Assembly (NCBI RefSeq): GCF_003967075.1
Contig: NZ_AP018664.1
Coordinates: forward strand, 3,323,501-3,387,500
DNA from: Sphingobium amiense
Lineage (GTDB): Bacteria; Pseudomonadota; Alphaproteobacteria; Sphingomonadales; Sphingomonadaceae
DNA: 64,000 nt
Direction of reading: 5' to 3'
How positions within the stretch are numbered: position 1 is the stretch's first letter; each line of letters starts with the position of its first letter. The notes under the pieces were generated by a model. That model was not told the DNA's origin. It saw only the letters and a program-made list of their open reading frames with translations, and made no database searches. Of this stretch, positions 1-47,623 are shown in pieces. The position numbers and the translations under genes were made by a program.

Positions 1-149
1 AGGAAGCCGCCCTTCTGCGCCCGCAGCGCGCGATATTCGGGCAGATAGCGTCCCGCCTGCCGCATCAGCCACATCGGCGGGACGACGGGAATCTCTCCGC
101 GCAGGACGCCGAGCAGCGGCTTTTCGATCGGGCCGGACGGAGCGTCCAT
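1..149 (-). CDS. hemE: Uroporphyrinogen decarboxylase, N-terminal fragment (cut by window edge)
   Basis: Uroporphyrinogen decarboxylase removes four carboxyl groups from uroporphyrinogen III to give coproporphyrinogen III in heme synthesis. Only about the first 49 codons are present, running off the left edge. The visible protein begins [10 protein letters not shown] and reaches the family's N-terminal signature [14 protein letters not shown] at residues 27-40, which contains conserved substrate-binding arginines. The ATG at 147-149 is the only sensible start ahead of this signature. It is transcribed away from ppsR, and hemE flanking the origin is a known alphaproteobacterial arrangement (Caulobacter, Rickettsia). 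Confidence 0.93.
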
Positions 150-301
150 ATGCTCTCACTCTCTCTTCATTATTTAGATTCAAAGGATGATGGAGATAGA
201 TGCTCCGTTGGCAGCGGGGTTTATGCGCAGCGCCCGATTTTGCCAACAGCTTGACTCCCGCAGGGCGCGCTTTGCCGTCCGAGTCATGAGAGTTACCCCC
301 G

Positions 302-310
302 TTATCCACA
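302..310 (+). promoter_or_regulatory. DnaA box (perfect TTATCCACA)
   Basis: Exact match to the DnaA consensus TTATCCACA in the hemE-ppsR gap. It pairs with an oppositely oriented perfect box 34 bp further on. Confidence 0.85.
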
Positions 311-344
311 GCATGTGGATGGAAAAGTGGGTCTGTTGGGGGTC

Positions 345-353
345 TGTGGATAA
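345..353 (-). promoter_or_regulatory. DnaA box (perfect, reverse orientation)
   Basis: TGTGGATAA on the plus strand is the exact reverse complement of TTATCCACA. It directly precedes a GAATC (GANTC) site at 354-358. Confidence 0.85.
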
Positions 354-413
354 GAATCCCGGCTCCGGGGACAGGGCGATGGGGCAAAGCTGTCCACAAT
401 TTCATCCCTTGCT

Positions 414-422
414 TTATCCACA
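414..422 (+). promoter_or_regulatory. DnaA box (perfect TTATCCACA)
   Basis: Third exact DnaA box. It lies 21 bp upstream of the ppsR start, so DnaA binding here could also affect ppsR transcription (inference). Confidence 0.85.
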
Positions 423-443
423 GCCCCCTCACAGAGATGTCCC

Positions 444-1268
444 ATGGCGCGCATCCACCTGCACCTCCTCTCCGACTCCACCGGCGAGACGCTGGAGAAT
501 ATCGCCAAGGCGGCGATCGGCCTGTTCGAAAATGTCGAGGCGATCCGCCATTTCTGGCCGATGGTCCGGTCCGAAGTCCATCTCGACCGGATCATGGAGG
601 AAATCGCCGCCAATCCCGGTCTCGTCCTCTTCACCCTCACCAACCATCTGCTGCGCAAGCGGCTGGAGGCGCGGTGCCGGACGCTGGGCCTGCCGCATGT
701 CGCCGCGCTCGACAGCGTGGCGGACGCGCTGTCCAACATATTGGGGCAGGAAACGCGCACGCGGCCGGGGCGCAAACATATTCTCGACGAAGCCTATTTC
801 GCGCGGATCGAGGCGATCCAGTTCACCATCGCCCATGACGACGGCGTGGGGCACGAAAATTGGGAGGAGGCCGACATCGTGCTGGCGGGCGTGTCGCGCG
901 CGTCGAAGACGCCGACCTCCATCTACCTCGCCAATCGCGGTTACAAGACGGCGAATATTCCGCTGGTGCCCGAATCCCCGCCGCCGCGCTGCCTCTACAA
1001 TCTGCGGCATCCGATGGTCGTGGGCCTGACCGTCAGCCCCGAACGGCTGATCCAGATCCGGCGCAACCGGCTGCTGTCGCTCAATCAGGCGCCCGAGACC
1101 GCCTATGTCGATATCGACAAGGTACAGGCGGAACTGGCCTTTGCCCGGCGGATGTTCGCCGACAATGGCTGGCCGGTGATCGACATGACGCGCCGCTCTA
1201 TCGAGGAGGCTGCCGCCGCGATCATCAACCTGTTCAACGACCGCGAACTGGCGGAGGCGGAAGGATGA
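444..1268 (+). CDS. ppsR: PEP synthase / pyruvate phosphate dikinase regulatory protein (DUF299)
   Basis: Bifunctional kinase/pyrophosphorylase of the DUF299 family, which controls PEP synthase or pyruvate,phosphate dikinase by ADP-dependent phosphorylation and Pi-dependent dephosphorylation of a threonine. The 274-aa length is normal for the family. The N-terminal signature HLLSDSTGET is at about residues 7-16 and the nucleotide-binding loop GVSRASKTP at about 149-157. The ATG at 444 follows the origin region with only a weak purine-rich upstream sequence. The family is the conserved right-hand neighbour of alphaproteobacterial origins (RP001-type gene). Its stop overlaps the maf start by 4 bp. 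Which of the two targets it controls cannot be told from this window. Confidence 0.93.
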   Translation: MARIHLHLLSDSTGETLENIAKAAIGLFENVEAIRHFWPMVRSEVHLDRIMEEIAANPGLVLFTLTNHLLRKRLEARCRTLGLPHVAALDSVADALSNILGQETRTRPGRKHILDEAYFARIEAIQFTIAHDDGVGHENWEEADIVLAGVSRASKTPTSIYLANRGYKTANIPLVPESPPPRCLYNLRHPMVVGLTVSPERLIQIRRNRLLSLNQAPETAYVDIDKVQAELAFARRMFADNGWPVIDMTRRSIEEAAAAIINLFNDRELAEAEG

Positions 1269-1858
1269 TCGTGCTCGCTTCGCAGAGCGCGAGCCGCCGG
1301 GCGATGCTGACCGCCGCTCAGGTGCCGTTCGAGGCGCTGTCGCCGGGCGTGGACGAGGAAGCGGCGAAAGAAGCGCTGCGCGGCGATGGCATCGACGCGC
1401 GGGCGCTCGCCGATGCGCTGGCCGAACTGAAGGCGCTCAGGGTGTCGCGGCGGGTGCCGGGCGCGCTGGTGCTGGGATGCGACCAGACGCTCTCGCTCGA
1501 CGACGGGAGCATGATCGACAAGGCGGTGGACCGCGAGGACGCGCGCCGCATCCTGAAACTTCTTTCCGGGCGGGTGCATCACCTGCACAGCGCGGCGGTA
1601 ATGGCTCTGAACGGCGAAGCGATCTGGCGTCATGTCGAGCGGGTGCGGATGACGGTGCGGCCGCTGTCGGACGCCTTCATCGACGCCTATCTCGATGCGG
1701 ACTGGGACCAGTTGCGCTGGTGCGTGGGCTGTTACCGGATCGAGGGACCGGGGGCGCAGCTTTTCAGCAGGGTCGAGGGCAGCCAGTTCGCGATTCAGGG
1801 GTTGCCGCTGCTCGCTTTGCTTGACTTTCTGCGTGTGCGCGGCGTTCTGGCGGCATGA
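1265..1858 (+). CDS. maf: Maf-like nucleotide pyrophosphatase
   Basis: Maf/HAM1-fold nucleoside triphosphate pyrophosphatase that hydrolyses non-canonical or modified nucleotides to the monophosphate and PPi. The 197-aa protein opens with LASQSASRR at residues 4-12, the Maf phosphate-binding signature, and has GCDQT near residue 71. The start is the ATG at 1265, which overlaps the ppsR stop as ATGA; an open frame extends upstream but is only the shifted frame of ppsR. Its own stop overlaps the aroE start by 4 bp, suggesting coupled translation. Substrate class (m7GTP versus dTTP/UTP) is not assigned. Confidence 0.9.
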   Translation: MIVLASQSASRRAMLTAAQVPFEALSPGVDEEAAKEALRGDGIDARALADALAELKALRVSRRVPGALVLGCDQTLSLDDGSMIDKAVDREDARRILKLLSGRVHHLHSAAVMALNGEAIWRHVERVRMTVRPLSDAFIDAYLDADWDQLRWCVGCYRIEGPGAQLFSRVEGSQFAIQGLPLLALLDFLRVRGVLAA

Positions 1859-2682
1859 GCGACGCCCTTCCCTATGCTGAAGTCATCGGCGATCCGATTG
1901 CGCACAGCAAATCGCCGCTGATCCACAATTTCTGGCTCGACGCCCTCAACATCGAGGCGGAATATCGCAAGACCCATGTACGGGCGGAGGAACTGGGCAG
2001 CTATTTCCTGCGGCGGCGGGCCGATCCCGACTGGCTGGGGTGCAACATCACGATTCCGCACAAGATCGCTGTGATGGACTATGTCGACGATCCGGGCGGG
2101 GTTCGCGAGCGGATCGGGGCGGTCAACACTATCGCGAGCGAAACGGGCGGGCCGCTGATCGGCACCAATACCGATGCGGGCGGCTTCCTCCAGCCACTGC
2201 TGCGCGACAAGTGGAAGGGCGAGAGCGCGGTGCTGGTCGGTGCGGGGGGCGCGGCACGGGCGATCCTTTTTGCGCTGACGACTCTGGGCGTGTCCGACAT
2301 TACGATCATGGCGCGCGATGCGGGGAAAGGGCAGGCGCTGCTCGACCGGGCCGGGGTGAAGGGCCGGGTGATCGGCATGGCCGACGCGCTGCCGCCCGTC
2401 GATCTGCTGGTCAATTCCACCTCGCTCGGCATGGTGGGGCAGCCGGTGCTGGAGCTGGACCTGTCGCCTCTGCCCGCCAGCGCGACGGTCTACGACATCG
2501 TCTATGCGCCGCTGGAGACAGGGCTGCTGAAGGCGGCGCGGGCGCGTGACCTGAAGACGCTCGATGGCCTGGAAATGCTGATCGGTCAGGCGGCGCTCGC
2601 GTTCGACATCTTCTTCGACGCGCAGGCGCCGCGCGAGCTGGACGCGGAGCTGCGCGCGCTGCTGCTTTCGGGCGGGGAATGA
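1855..2682 (+). CDS. aroE: Shikimate dehydrogenase (NADP+)
   Basis: Reduces 3-dehydroshikimate to shikimate with NADPH in aromatic amino-acid synthesis. The 275-aa length is typical. Visible motifs are the shikimate-binding SKSPLIHN at residues 18-25, the catalytic lysine in NITIPHK (K70), and the NADP-binding glycine loop GAGGAARAI near residue 128. The ATG overlaps the maf stop and the TGA overlaps the coaE start, each by 4 bp, so the gene sits inside a tightly coupled ppsR-maf-aroE-coaE run. Confidence 0.96.
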   Translation: MSDALPYAEVIGDPIAHSKSPLIHNFWLDALNIEAEYRKTHVRAEELGSYFLRRRADPDWLGCNITIPHKIAVMDYVDDPGGVRERIGAVNTIASETGGPLIGTNTDAGGFLQPLLRDKWKGESAVLVGAGGAARAILFALTTLGVSDITIMARDAGKGQALLDRAGVKGRVIGMADALPPVDLLVNSTSLGMVGQPVLELDLSPLPASATVYDIVYAPLETGLLKAARARDLKTLDGLEMLIGQAALAFDIFFDAQAPRELDAELRALLLSGGE

Positions 2683-3272
2683 AGGTCTACGGCCTCACCG
2701 GCTCGATCGGGATGGGGAAGTCGGCGGTCGCCGCCATGTTCCGCCGCCTCGCCGTGCCGCTGTTCGACGCCGACGCCGAAGTGCATCGCCTGCAGGGACC
2801 GGGCGGCGCGCTGCTGACTGCGATCGAGGCGCGCTTTCCCGGCACGACCGGTCCCATGGGCGTCGACCGCGCGAAGCTGGGCGCGGCGGTGTTCGGCCAT
2901 GCGGGCGAGCGGCGCGCGCTCGAAGCCATCGTCCACCCGGCGGTGCGGGAATCGCGGGAAAAGTTCCTGCGCCGCAACCGCTCCCGCCCCTTCGTCATCC
3001 TCGACATACCGCTCTTGTTCGAAACCCATGGGCATAAATGGCTCGACGGCATCATCGTCGTGACCGCTCCGGCGTGGAAGCAGCGCAAGCGCGTGCTGGC
3101 GCGGCCCGGCATGACTCCCGGCAAATTCCGGCAGATCAGGCGGCTCCAGACCCCCGACGCGGAAAAGCGCCGCCGCGCCGACCATATCATCCATACCGGC
3201 ACCACCTTCGCCGCGACGCAGGCACAGGTTCGCCGTCTCGTCGCTTGCCTTGGGGCCAAGACAGGCCGATAA
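2679..3272 (+). CDS. coaE: Dephospho-CoA kinase
   Basis: Last step of coenzyme A synthesis: phosphorylates the 3'-hydroxyl of dephospho-CoA. The 197-aa protein carries the Walker A motif GSIGMGKS at residues 8-15, the family's LFDADAEVH stretch shortly after, and the VDIPLLFE-like segment ILDIPLLFET in the middle. The ATG overlaps the aroE stop as ATGA. It is followed at 31 bp by dnaQ, the usual coaE-dnaQ pairing of alphaproteobacterial origin regions. Confidence 0.96.
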   Translation: MKVYGLTGSIGMGKSAVAAMFRRLAVPLFDADAEVHRLQGPGGALLTAIEARFPGTTGPMGVDRAKLGAAVFGHAGERRALEAIVHPAVRESREKFLRRNRSRPFVILDIPLLFETHGHKWLDGIIVVTAPAWKQRKRVLARPGMTPGKFRQIRRLQTPDAEKRRRADHIIHTGTTFAATQAQVRRLVACLGAKTGR

Positions 3273-3303
3273 GGGTCAGCCATAGACTCGATGCGAAGAG
3301 GCG

Positions 3304-3996
3304 ATGCGCGAGGTTATTTTCGACACCGAAACGACGGGCTTCGATCCTGCTTCCGGCGACCGGATGGTCGAGATCGGCTGCATCGAACTGGTGAACCGGG
3401 TGCCCACCGGGCGCACATTCCACGCTTATTATCATCCCGAGCGCGACATGCCCGCCGCCGCTTTTGCCGTGCACGGTCTGTCGGCCGACTTCCTCGCCAA
3501 ACATCCGGTGTTCGCCAGAGGCGCGCTGGAGCTGCTCGACTTTCTGGAGGACAGCCCGCTGGTCGCGCATAATGCGCGGTTCGACTTCGGCTTCCTCAAC
3601 CATGAACTGCGCCTGTGCGGCCATCCCGAAGTTTCGATGGACCGGATGATCGACACCGTCGCCATCGCCCGGCAACTGCATCCGGGCGCCAAGCACAGCC
3701 TCGACGCGCTCTGCTCGCGCTATGGCATCGACCGCAGCCACCGCGTCAAACATGGCGCGCTGCTCGACGCCGAACTGCTCGCGCAACTTTACATCGAACT
3801 GACCGGCGGCCGTCAGATCGGCCTTGGTCTTGCACAGGAGGAAGGCATTGAGATCGTCAGGGTGGAACTGACGGCGGACGCCGTGGTTCGCCCTGTGCGT
3901 CCCGCGCGGGTCTTTACGGCCAGCGCGGCGGAGCTGGAGCGGCATGCAGCGTTCGTCGCGACGCTGAAAGAGCCGCTCTGGTTGCAGGAGGCATAG
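3304..3996 (+). CDS. dnaQ: DNA polymerase III epsilon subunit (3'-5' proofreading exonuclease)
   Basis: Proofreading exonuclease of the replicative polymerase. The 230-aa protein has the DEDDh exonuclease motifs: FDTETTGFDP (D7, E9), the ExoII region HNARFDFGFLNHE, and ExoIII HGALLDAELLA with its histidine and aspartate. The C-terminal tail after about residue 180 is the region that normally contacts the alpha subunit. An AAGAGG purine run lies close before the ATG. The gene is a standard member of the origin-proximal cluster. Confidence 0.95.
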   Translation: MREVIFDTETTGFDPASGDRMVEIGCIELVNRVPTGRTFHAYYHPERDMPAAAFAVHGLSADFLAKHPVFARGALELLDFLEDSPLVAHNARFDFGFLNHELRLCGHPEVSMDRMIDTVAIARQLHPGAKHSLDALCSRYGIDRSHRVKHGALLDAELLAQLYIELTGGRQIGLGLAQEEGIEIVRVELTADAVVRPVRPARVFTASAAELERHAAFVATLKEPLWLQEA

Positions 3997-4077
3997 ACCC
4001 TTATCGAAGTGGCCTATGCCTCCCGGAAGGAACCGGGCCGCCGTTCTGGCGGGCCGGCAAGAACAAGGAGAAGGCAT

Positions 4078-23086: not shown

Positions 23087-24016
23087 CTAGATACGTTCGC
23101 CCGACAGGCGCTGGCACAGCATGTCGAGCTGGTCCAGATTGGAGTAGCGGAGCGACAATGCGCCGCCCCCGCCGCCTTCATGCACGATGTCGACGCGCAG
23201 GCCCAATATGTCGGCCAGATGCTGTTCGAGCGCGGCGATGTCCGGATCTTTCGCGGTTCCCGTTGCGCTTTTCGTGGTGCGCGGGGTCGAGGCATCGGAG
23301 CCGGTCTTGACGCGGCGAACCAGTTGCTCTGTATCGCGGACGGACAGCCCCTTGGTTTCGACCTGCTGCGCAAGGCGCTCGCAATCGGGCGCGCCGATCA
23401 ATGCGCGGGCATGGCCCATGCTGATCCGGCTGTGCATGACCTGCGTCTGCACCGCCTGCGGCAGTTCGAGAAGGCGCATCAGGTTGGCGACATGGCTGCG
23501 CGACTTGCCGACGATCCGGCCCAGCGCTTCCTGACTGTGATGAAATTCGGCGATGAGCTTGCGATAGGCCTCGGCTTCCTCGATGGGATTGAGGTCTTCG
23601 CGCTGGATATTTTCGATGAGCGCGATTTCGAGCGTTTCCTGCTCATCGAAGTCGCGGACGATTGCCGGGATGCGGTGCAACTGCGCGCGCTGCGCTGCGC
23701 GCCAGCGCCGCTCACCGGCGATGATCTGGAACCCCCCGCCATGGGGCCGGACGATGATCGGCTGAATGACGCCGCGCTTGGCGATGCTGTCAGCCAGTTC
23801 CTGCAGGGCGGCATCATCGAAATGGCGGCGAGGCTGCTCGGGGTGCGGATGGATCAAAGCGACTTCGATGCTCTGGACGGTTTTCCCGTTCGCCTGAGCA
23901 GGATTGGCGGCAACCGGCTCGTCCCGCGTCGCGTCGCCCAGTAGCGCGGACAGTCCTCTGCCCAGCCCCTGCGGACGTTTGGCGCTCTTGGGCTTTTCGG
24001 TCGTTTCGTCGCTCAA
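23087..24016 (-). CDS. parB: Chromosome partitioning protein ParB (CTPase/DNA-binding)
   Basis: Binds parS, loads and spreads as a CTP-dependent clamp, and drives origin segregation with ParA. The 309-aa protein has the N-terminal ParA-stimulating motif GLGRGLSALLGD (residues 17-28). The CTP-binding ParB/Srx domain includes QPRRHFDD and the GERRWRAAQ motif, followed by the helix-turn-helix around RIVGKSRSHVANLMRLL and a C-terminal dimerisation domain. The start is a TTG at 24014-24016 with GGAGG at 24024-24028, 7 bp upstream; no ATG or GTG fits. It overlaps the parA stop. Confidence 0.95.
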   Translation of the reverse strand: MSDETTEKPKSAKRPQGLGRGLSALLGDATRDEPVAANPAQANGKTVQSIEVALIHPHPEQPRRHFDDAALQELADSIAKRGVIQPIIVRPHGGGFQIIAGERRWRAAQRAQLHRIPAIVRDFDEQETLEIALIENIQREDLNPIEEAEAYRKLIAEFHHSQEALGRIVGKSRSHVANLMRLLELPQAVQTQVMHSRISMGHARALIGAPDCERLAQQVETKGLSVRDTEQLVRRVKTGSDASTPRTTKSATGTAKDPDIAALEQHLADILGLRVDIVHEGGGGGALSLRYSNLDQLDMLCQRLSGERI

Positions 24017-24795: not shown

Positions 24796-25436
24796 GAACG
24801 ACCTTTCTTCCTGCCTTGAGGGACGACGCCCCGCGCAACGATGATCGAGCTTTCCGGATCGGTGACGCTCGGTTCCACGTGGAACACACCTTGCCACGCC
24901 GGGCGCGCCGCCTCCAGTTCATTTTGCGCATTTCGGCCCTTTGGCAGAACCCAGACCGTTTTTGCATTAGAAAGATGGAGCGCGGACGCCCATAACTGCG
25001 GCAGCGGCGCATAGGCGCGGGCGCTGACGATGGCTGCGTTGCATGGCGGTGCATTTTCGACGCGGCCGCCGAATATTTTCGCATGCCCAAGGCCCACGTC
25101 GTCGATCACATGCTGGAGGAAGTCTATACGCTTGCGCCGGCTTTCGATCATCAGGATGGGGCGGTTAGACAGGCAGGCCACCACGATGCCGGGAAGCCCT
25201 GCGCCGGAGCCGAGATCGATCCAGGCGCCATCGCCGTCGTTGCGCGCGTGTGTCAAAAGCTGGGCCGAATCGACGATGTGGCGCGCCCAGAGATGCGGCA
25301 CGGTGGAAGCGGAAATGAGGTTCTGCTCCGCCATGCCTTTCAGAAGCAGGTCGACATAGCGTTCCAGCTTTGCCGCTGTTTCACGTGAAACATCAAAGTT
25401 GCTATCGAGCCATGCCCTCGCTTCGTCTTCGGTCAC
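24792..25436 (-). CDS. rsmG: 16S rRNA (guanine(527)-N7)-methyltransferase RsmG (GidB)
   Basis: Methylates G527 of 16S rRNA using S-adenosylmethionine. The 214-aa protein has the family segment NLISAST...[12 protein letters not shown] and the SAM-binding loop [12 protein letters not shown], followed by [11 protein letters not shown]. The start is a GTG at 25434-25436 that overlaps the mnmG stop as GTGA; no ATG fits. Codons 15-20 (DVSRET) encode a perfect parS site, and a GTTCC-type parS-like palindrome lies under codons for VFHVEP near the 3' end. Confidence 0.95.
24871..24886. promoter_or_regulatory. parS-like palindrome inside rsmG (3' part)
   Basis: GGTTCCACGTGGAACA is a 14-bp perfect palindrome GTTCCACGTGGAAC, differing from consensus parS only at the symmetric T-to-C/A-to-G positions. 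It lies about 75 bp upstream of the parA start, so it could be bound by ParB and possibly affect parA expression (inference). Confidence 0.65.
25377..25392. promoter_or_regulatory. parS: parS centromere site (perfect 16 bp) in rsmG 5' end
   Basis: TGTTTCACGTGAAACA matches the consensus chromosomal parS exactly over all 16 bp. It is embedded in rsmG and read as codons for the residues VSRET. It lies about 25 kb from the predicted oriC and 1.4 kb from parB. Confidence 0.93.
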
Positions 25437-47114: not shown

Positions 47115-47623
47115 GGCGCGGCGTCGGGATCGACCCGCTCTCCGCCGCAACCCTTGAGCGCTCCGTCCGCGAAGGCGATCTGCGCGCGATCCGACCAGAT
47201 GCTGTCGCTCATGCCGTCGCTGCACGGTCCTTCCGTCACGGTCATCGTCATGCCATCTCCGACATAGCGAAGGGCGCGTCCGTCATCGTCGAGCGCGACC
47301 CGATAGCGGCGCGCGGGTTGACCGGGCCGCTCCAGAATCAGCGTATCGCCCCGAACGGTGACGGCCCAGAAGGGTTCGGTCCCGATGGCGCGATAGTTCG
47401 GGGTTGGCCGTTGCGATTCTGGCGTTTCACGTGAAACCGGTGACCTGGCGAGTGGTGGAGGCGTCGGACGGGGCGGTTGCGTTGCGACGGCGGGTGAGGG
47501 CGCGGCAGCGATCGGCGCTTTGATCGCCTTGCCCGCCCCCGGCGCGGTTGCATTCGTCGTGGGGAGCGGCGATTCTCCGCCGCAGGCCGAAAGGCACAGG
47601 GCGACGAACGCCGCGCGCCTCAC
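47111..47623 (-). CDS. COG3650-type putative lipoprotein with internal parS
   Basis: A 170-aa predicted lipoprotein: VRRAAFVALCLSAC gives a lipobox with the lipidated cysteine at about residue 14, followed by a Pro/Ala/Thr-rich linker. A beta-rich domain starts near residue 78 (YRAIGTEPFWAVTVRGDTL) and ends EGPCSDGMSDSIW...GALKGCGG, resembling COG3650/META-like proteins. The start is the GTG at 47621-47623, overlapping the tag stop by 4 bp. The linker codons SPVSRETPES contain a parS core. It is convergent with the helicase gene. Confidence 0.8.
   Translation of the reverse strand: MRRAAFVALCLSACGGESPLPTTNATAPGAGKAIKAPIAAAPSPAVATQPPRPTPPPLARSPVSRETPESQRPTPNYRAIGTEPFWAVTVRGDTLILERPGQPARRYRVALDDDGRALRYVGDGMTMTVTEGPCSDGMSDSIWSDRAQIAFADGALKGCGGERVDPDAAP
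47423..47438. promoter_or_regulatory. parS: parS site inside the COG3650-type gene
   Basis: CGTTTCACGTGAAACC contains the 14-bp palindrome GTTTCACGTGAAAC at 47424-47437, identical to the core of the perfect parS at 25377-25392, with only the outermost bases differing. It lies about 22 kb from that site and is again read as VSRET in the host gene. Confidence 0.85.

Follow-up and report, generated by a model that had tools for sequence, protein, structure and literature searches.

A probable chromosomal replication origin between hemE and ppsR in Sphingobium amiense and its spaced pair of GANTC sites

Genes and sequence features at the hemE/ppsR locus

The stretch of DNA analyzed here, which we refer to as the window, is 64 kb long and corresponds to C1:3323501-3387500, where C1 (4,221,764 bp) is the contig of chromosome size among the 7 contigs of a 4.77 Mb assembly. 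The closest named relatives of the ppsR gene product belonged to Sphingobium, with up to 96% protein identity among the best 80 of 565 confirmed relatives, a set from which records of the source genome itself were possibly left out. The intergenic region between hemE and ppsR spans 294 bp (150-443) and has a GC content of 54%, compared to 66% for the whole window. Adjoining the right end of the window is a stretch of 20 kb (C1:3387501-3407500) with a GC content of 47.9%, compared to about 66% around it, which is possibly a foreign island.

The features of the window are given below. The DnaA boxes were compared across 25 same-genus sequences, source genome included, and the counts refer to the sequences that covered each box.

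1-149, minus strand: 5' part of hemE, which encodes uroporphyrinogen decarboxylase and has its start codon at 147-149; the gene extends past the left edge of the window
162-201: AT-rich stretch, candidate DNA-unwinding element, 30% GC, the 40-mer with the lowest GC content in the 64-kb window
177-181: GATTC, a GANTC site inside the AT-rich stretch; the column is GANTC in 15 of 25 same-genus sequences and gapped in 2
207-247: GTTGGCA...TGCCAAC block, kept in the congener alignment
251-285, plus strand: GANTC pair, TTGACTC (251-257) and GAGTC (281-285), with GANTC starts 28 bp apart
293-301, plus strand: possible very weak DnaA box TTACCCCCG, abutting the box at 302; in 24 sequences, 0 mismatches in 1, 1 in 2, 2 in 8 and 3 in 13
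302-310, plus strand: exact DnaA box; of the 24 covering sequences, 11 have it exact, 11 with one mismatch and 2 with two
314-322, minus strand: degenerate DnaA box CCATCCACA, 2 mismatches; of 24 sequences, 4 have it exact, 8 with one mismatch, 9 with two and 3 with three
345-353, minus strand: exact DnaA box; of 24 sequences, 17 have it exact and 7 with one mismatch
354-358: GANTC site (GAATC) adjoining the box at 345; GANTC in 18 of 25 sequences, gapped in 1
390-398, plus strand: degenerate DnaA box CTGTCCACA, 2 mismatches; of 24 sequences, 7 have it exact, 1 with one mismatch and 4 with two, and 12 have lost it (5-6 mismatches)
414-422, plus strand: exact DnaA box and the best conserved of all, with no mismatch in any of the 25 same-genus sequences
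444-1268, plus strand: ppsR (DUF299/RP001/COG1806 family); NF003742, 320 bits, above cut-off
1265-1858, plus strand: maf-like gene; NF002690, 189 bits, under the cut-off of 269
1855-2682, plus strand: aroE; TIGR00507, 207 bits, above cut-off
2679-3272, plus strand: coaE; TIGR00152, 107 bits, above cut-off
3304-3996, plus strand: dnaQ; TIGR01406, 260 bits, above cut-off
23603-23881, minus strand: ParB N-terminal domain (C1:3347103-3347381); PF02195, 125 bits, the top score among 12 matches in the assembly
25377-25392: perfect parS TGTTTCACGTGAAACA, the sole perfect match in the assembly

The first-pass annotation had proposed the gene order hemE-oriC-ppsR-maf-aroE-coaE-dnaQ. This order was upheld for hemE, which in a profile search matched TIGR01464 with 393 bits, above the cut-off (L025:169-1206, minus strand), and for ppsR, aroE, coaE and dnaQ, which also scored above the model cut-offs, but the gene named maf can only be called Maf-like, its score being below the cut-off.

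All three exact boxes claimed from the first reading of the sequence, at 302-310, 345-353 and 414-422, were present, and so were the two degenerate boxes at 314-322 and 390-398, while a further match with 2 mismatches, at 221-229, is unlikely to be a box. The box TTATCCACA had 12 exact matches in the assembly, 8 of which were located on C1, and 3 of these 8 were clustered within 121 bp between hemE and ppsR. According to an arithmetic estimate, the chance expectation of such a triplet from 8 sites on 4.22 Mb is about 1e-7. If up to one mismatch was accepted, the window contained 8 matches compared to 3.0 expected, a number that was reached by 1 of 100 shuffles. The assembly as a whole contained 291 such matches compared to 372 for the reversed pattern, which means that the box is not generally enriched and that the clustering alone is notable.

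The dnaA gene is located about 0.9 Mb from the hemE/ppsR locus, and a single box with one mismatch was found around it, in the span from -4000 to +2000 relative to the contig start. An origin at dnaA was rejected because a box cluster is absent there. Nor did the search of the assembly reveal a second cluster of exact boxes. Among the matches listed, other close pairs with one mismatch were located at C1:403928/403942 and C1:1462615/1462625, and clusters of weak boxes may exist elsewhere in the assembly. The AT-rich patch previously noted at 168-181 is real and forms part of the longer stretch at 162-201, for which the aligned congeners, judged by eye, are AT-rich at the corresponding position and which is the predicted site of unwinding.

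With the sequence that we take to be the parS consensus, the perfect parS site was identified about 25 kb from the hemE/ppsR intergenic region, at much the same distance as the top-scoring ParB gene. A second parS-like site with 2 mismatches was observed at 47423-47438, 22 kb past the perfect site. Two other readings of the region were discarded: a hairpin formed by two inverted repeats folded no better than shuffled sequences (z = -0.58), and a structured RNA gained no Rfam match at the gathering score in positions 1-4000.

Conservation of the locus, GC skew and placement of the origin

A match to ppsR was obtained in all 41 genomes of a first set, consisting of the source genome, 24 genomes of the same genus and 16 of the order, and in 115 of 119 family genomes, source genome included. 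The 4 family genomes without a match (G060, G061, G113 and G144) are all 2.1-2.3 Mb in size, and in these either the origin flank must differ or ppsR has been lost or missed. Besides the source genome, 114 family genomes contained ppsR, and 89 of these loci were read, the 25 omitted being mostly lower-scoring, with an upstream span of 700 bp in 60 loci and of up to 1 kb accepted in 29. Of the 89 loci, 87 had a divergent hemE gene within the upstream span. The exceptions were L200, in which hemE was about 1,045 bases off and thus beyond the accepted range, and L260, which had no hemE within 700 bases upstream. A box with at most one mismatch was present in 80 of the 87 hemE-bearing loci and an exact box in 27, and the box layout was largely conserved across the 25 same-genus genomes. 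We also noted that the contigs G011:C1 and G037:C1 start 32 and 59 bases ahead of the ppsR match, the former being cut exactly ahead of the 414-type box, as if the depositors had opened the circle at this origin.

GC skew, which has been described as insufficient for finding origins in several alphaproteobacteria (PMC1914354), was counted as supporting evidence and not as a strict definition of the origin. The skew minimum that the first-pass annotation anticipated at the locus was not observed, as 22 of 44 sampled stretches of C1 had the expected sign. The skew was positive on both sides of the hemE/ppsR locus, and leftward it stayed at or above zero, except for a value of -0.010 at 3.22 Mb, until it reached -0.041 at 3.10 Mb. 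For 26 of the sampled stretches, those at round 100-kb marks, the best origin fit was obtained near 3.65-3.70 Mb, with a correlation of 0.42 compared to 0.26 at the locus. The congener G011 agreed in 17 of 20 samples, with the best fit 0.05-0.15 Mb left of the locus; here, the skew was +0.011 in the last 20 kb, about zero at 0.09 Mb and -0.068 at about 0.19 Mb from the locus. The 20 kb beside hemE were positive in the congeners G021, G016 and G001, and in G007 the hemE side had a skew of -0.066 and the ppsR side of +0.002, followed by -0.035. Given these mixed values in the source genome and its congeners, the skew neither confirms nor places the origin in this genus. In G037, which belongs to another family of the order and whose contig begins at ppsR, 20 of 20 samples fitted an origin at ppsR, and the skew switched across the locus from -0.088 in the last 20 kb of the contig to +0.061 in the first.

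The true origin could be located elsewhere, for instance 0.1-0.4 Mb off or at dnaA, in which case the box cluster would represent a hemE/ppsR promoter region under the control of DnaA or a site of DnaA titration. The weak fit near 3.65-3.70 Mb argues for this alternative, as does the clear sign change to the left of hemE, and not at hemE, in the source genome and in G011. It is opposed by the lack of a comparable exact-box cluster in the assembly, including at dnaA, by the location of parS and the best ParB gene near hemE/ppsR and by the sharp switch at ppsR in G037, and we consider it very unlikely. In addition to dnaA, the assembly contained 28 weak matches to PF00308 (20 on C1, and others on C2, C3, C4 and C6) in groups of identical or near-identical score, which we presume to be IstB-like helpers of several IS families. 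The genome seems rich in IS elements, which makes it plausible that the skew was scrambled by transposon rearrangement, and such scrambling would be our likely explanation of the irregular skew on C1.

The origin region contains the boxes, the AT-rich stretch and the flanking genes, has parS and parB in its vicinity and is conserved. Based on the sole cluster of exact boxes, the flanks, parS and ParB, the retained layout and the skew switch in G037, we conclude, as the first-pass annotation had proposed, that the region at 150-443 is very probably the chromosomal oriC in a bacterium of the Sphingobium type, an alphaproteobacterial origin with hemE and ppsR as flanks. If events proceed as at the well-studied bacterial origins, DnaA would occupy the three strong boxes (302, 345 and 414) plus the weaker ones between them and oligomerize toward the hemE side, the AT-rich stretch at 162-201 would melt and the helicase would be loaded there, after which ParB bound at the nearby parS would separate the new origins. 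The least certain part of this scheme is that the GANTC methylation state left by the last round of replication may be coupled to origin firing or to hemE transcription. A reliable oriC is useful in this genus, since GC skew fails in the sampled genomes.

The spaced pair of GANTC sites

The methyltransferase CcrM methylates GANTC. The region at 150-443 contained four GANTC sites (177, 253, 281 and 354) compared to 1.1 expected, and 175 other intergenic gaps in the same genome, defined by a crude ORF rule, contained 104 sites in 54,933 bases, which corresponds to 0.55 per 293 bases; one of the 175 gaps was equally dense. Across 80 GTDB loci, 345 sites were counted compared to 95.6 expected, whereas the 2.5 kb downstream contained 464 compared to 656.7. 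The 87 family origins, which partly overlap with the 80 GTDB loci, contained 433 sites compared to 102.7 expected. The assembly encodes a CcrM homolog (NF050803, 616 bits, under the model cut-off of 830), by which the sites are presumably methylated, and GcrA (PF07750, 85 bits). Methylation of GANTC has been measured in a different strain, Sphingomonas sp. AAP5 (PMC8067484).

Both GANTC columns of the pair at 251-285 were kept in 22 of the 25 same-genus sequences and were gapped in 2. Of the 25 same-genus genomes, 23 carried the pattern TTGACTC-N22-24-GAGTC at oriC, and all 25 together contained 2 further copies (in G005 and G016), compared to 7 matches to a reversed control pattern. In G011, GATTC replaces GAGTC at the same distance of 28 bp, and G017 is without the pair. 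TTGACTC was identified in 25 of the 87 family loci, and in every one of these a GANTC site followed 27-29 bp on (28 bp in 15 loci, 29 bp in 9 and 27 bp in 1). The motif on the other strand, GAGTCAA, was identified in 21 different family loci, with a GANTC site 17 bp upstream in 18 and 16 bp upstream in one. Of the 87 loci, 25 had the strict form of the 28-bp class and 19 that of the 17-bp class, with no overlap, compared to 0.05 and 0.01 in shuffled sequences; 43 had neither strict form, and 21 were without any of the pair forms counted. The spacings of the 28-bp and 17-bp classes differ by 11 bp, which is about one helical turn.

Outside the family, 28 ppsR loci were examined among the 37 genomes with a match, and the 26 loci with readable flanks contained 76 GANTC sites compared to 43.4 expected and, for the 28-bp form, a single pair at 26-30 bp. 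In 16 genomes from other families, the pair pattern was found only in G035, on contig C7, while ppsR in this genome is on C3. The weaker enrichment across the class and the single pair suggest that the strong enrichment and the 28-bp pair are traits of the family.

One interpretation is that the pair mediates CcrM-dependent control of replication, whereby a factor reads the hemimethylated state and delays re-firing. In E. coli, SeqA together with GATC sites delays re-firing of the origin. In favor of such control in the sphingomonads are the density of GANTC at the origin, both relative to other gaps in the genome and across the family, the near confinement of the pair to oriC in the genus, the exact spacing (25 of 25 and 19 of 21 loci) and the presence of CcrM and GcrA homologs. 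We know of no SeqA-like reader for GANTC, however, and the 43 family loci with neither strict form, the 21 with none of the forms counted and the weaker class-wide enrichment all speak against this interpretation. Several family loci have moreover lost the second GANTC site yet retain GTCAA (as GCGTCAA), which indicates that what is conserved may be a contact with a protein or a promoter, with methylation as an addition, and that TTGAC may outweigh methylation. Control by hemimethylation has been proposed for Agrobacterium ori2 (PMC11514494), but in Caulobacter the DNA-content profile after rifampicin was normal in the absence of ccrM, from which the authors concluded that CcrM is not required there (PMC3973325, repeated in PMC6090056). 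Overall, we regard replication control by the pair as rather unlikely.

The GTTGGCA/TGCCAAC block next to the pair was initially considered a binding palindrome. A looser form of the whole repeat was present in 34 of 80 GTDB loci, mainly in Sphingobium, whereas 32 of the 87 family loci contained TGCCAA. With these frequencies the idea of a palindrome was dropped, and the right arm is now read as possibly part of a hemE promoter. On the minus strand, TTGGCA (246-241) and CATAAA (225-220), with a spacer of 15 bp, would constitute a weak hemE promoter. The pair could be an operator or part of a promoter that responds to methylation and serves hemE (or ppsR), read by GcrA and the housekeeping sigma factor, in which case replication would be affected only via transcription. 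GCCAA, the reverse of the -35-like TTGGC of the putative hemE promoter, was located directly 5' of TTGACTC in 23 of the 25 TTGACTC loci, the TTGACTC of the 17-bp class points toward hemE, and GcrA is reported to prefer promoters with fully methylated or hemimethylated GANTC (PMC8116508). Against this are the lack, by eye, of a good -10 element after TTGACTC on the plus strand in the window and the assignment of the hemE promoter, which was likewise made by eye. We tentatively regard the operator or promoter role as a realistic possibility, at somewhat less than even chance.

In one version of the replication-control interpretation, the pair of CcrM sites would be lineage-specific, with a spacing of 27-29 bp or, on the opposite strand, of 17 bp, and would time the firing of oriC through its methylation state, as an alphaproteobacterial counterpart of Dam/SeqA sequestration in place of the CtrA sites of Caulobacter; we consider this unlikely. 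The pair makes it testable how replication is restricted to once per cycle in alphaproteobacteria with origins that lack CtrA sites, and also whether CcrM participates at oriC. A published description of a GANTC pair at sphingomonad origins was not found in a search with supplements and most of the subscription literature outside its scope. The spaced GANTC pair is the single item in the region that deserves specialist attention.

Comparison with known origins

The Caulobacter origin, Cori, relies mainly on weak DnaA boxes, unlike the Sphingobium origin with its three exact boxes. In agreement with the first-pass annotation, it is in print that hemE and the RP001/DUF299 (COG1806) gene flank the origin of Caulobacter and the predicted origin of Rickettsia prowazekii (PMC1914354). 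Cori of Caulobacter crescentus, which was identified experimentally between hemE and COG1806 (PMC1914354), likewise occupies the hemE-DUF299/COG1806 interval and contains DnaA boxes and an AT-rich stretch (PMC1914354, PMC4468827, PMC3973325), and it is also reported to contain GANTC motifs (PMC3973325). However, five CtrA sites and one IHF site are described for Cori, whereas in the Sphingobium region at 150-443 neither the strict CtrA consensus TTAA-N7-TTAA, nor the looser TTWW-N7-TTWW, nor the IHF consensus WATCAN5WTR was matched. Of the 25 same-genus sequences, source included, 3 matched the strict CtrA consensus, 7 the looser one and 2 the IHF consensus, and outside the family the strict form was matched in 2 of the 26 loci with readable flanks. 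The predicted oriC of Rickettsia prowazekii shares the hemE/COG1806 flanks but is 82.55% AT (PMC1914354), compared to 46% in the Sphingobium region, which lacks the CtrA consensus.

Most Sphingomonadaceae listed in DoriC have their predicted oriC at hemE (PMC4741004). The predicted origins of Sphingopyxis granuli TFA and other Sphingomonadaceae are located beside hemE, with boxes, a putative DUE and a conserved gene order (PMC4741004), and the main text of that paper provides a box consensus and the gene order, with no mention of GANTC or CtrA. A putative origin with three boxes near hemE has also been described for Novosphingobium PP1Y (PMC4059872). The dnaA gene is reported not to be conserved near ori in Sphingomonadales, for which parAB has been suggested as an anchor (PMC8116508). 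With regard to methylation, the origins of repABC chromids are rich in GANTC, and overexpression of CcrM upsets the chromosome content (PMC6090056).

The location of the origin beside hemE has thus already been published for sphingomonads, and the less ordinary feature is the precisely spaced GANTC pair. In E. coli, oriC has methylation sites clustered among the DnaA boxes. The Sphingobium origin shares such clustered methylation sites, with GANTC and CcrM in place of GATC and Dam and with a function that is hypothetical there.
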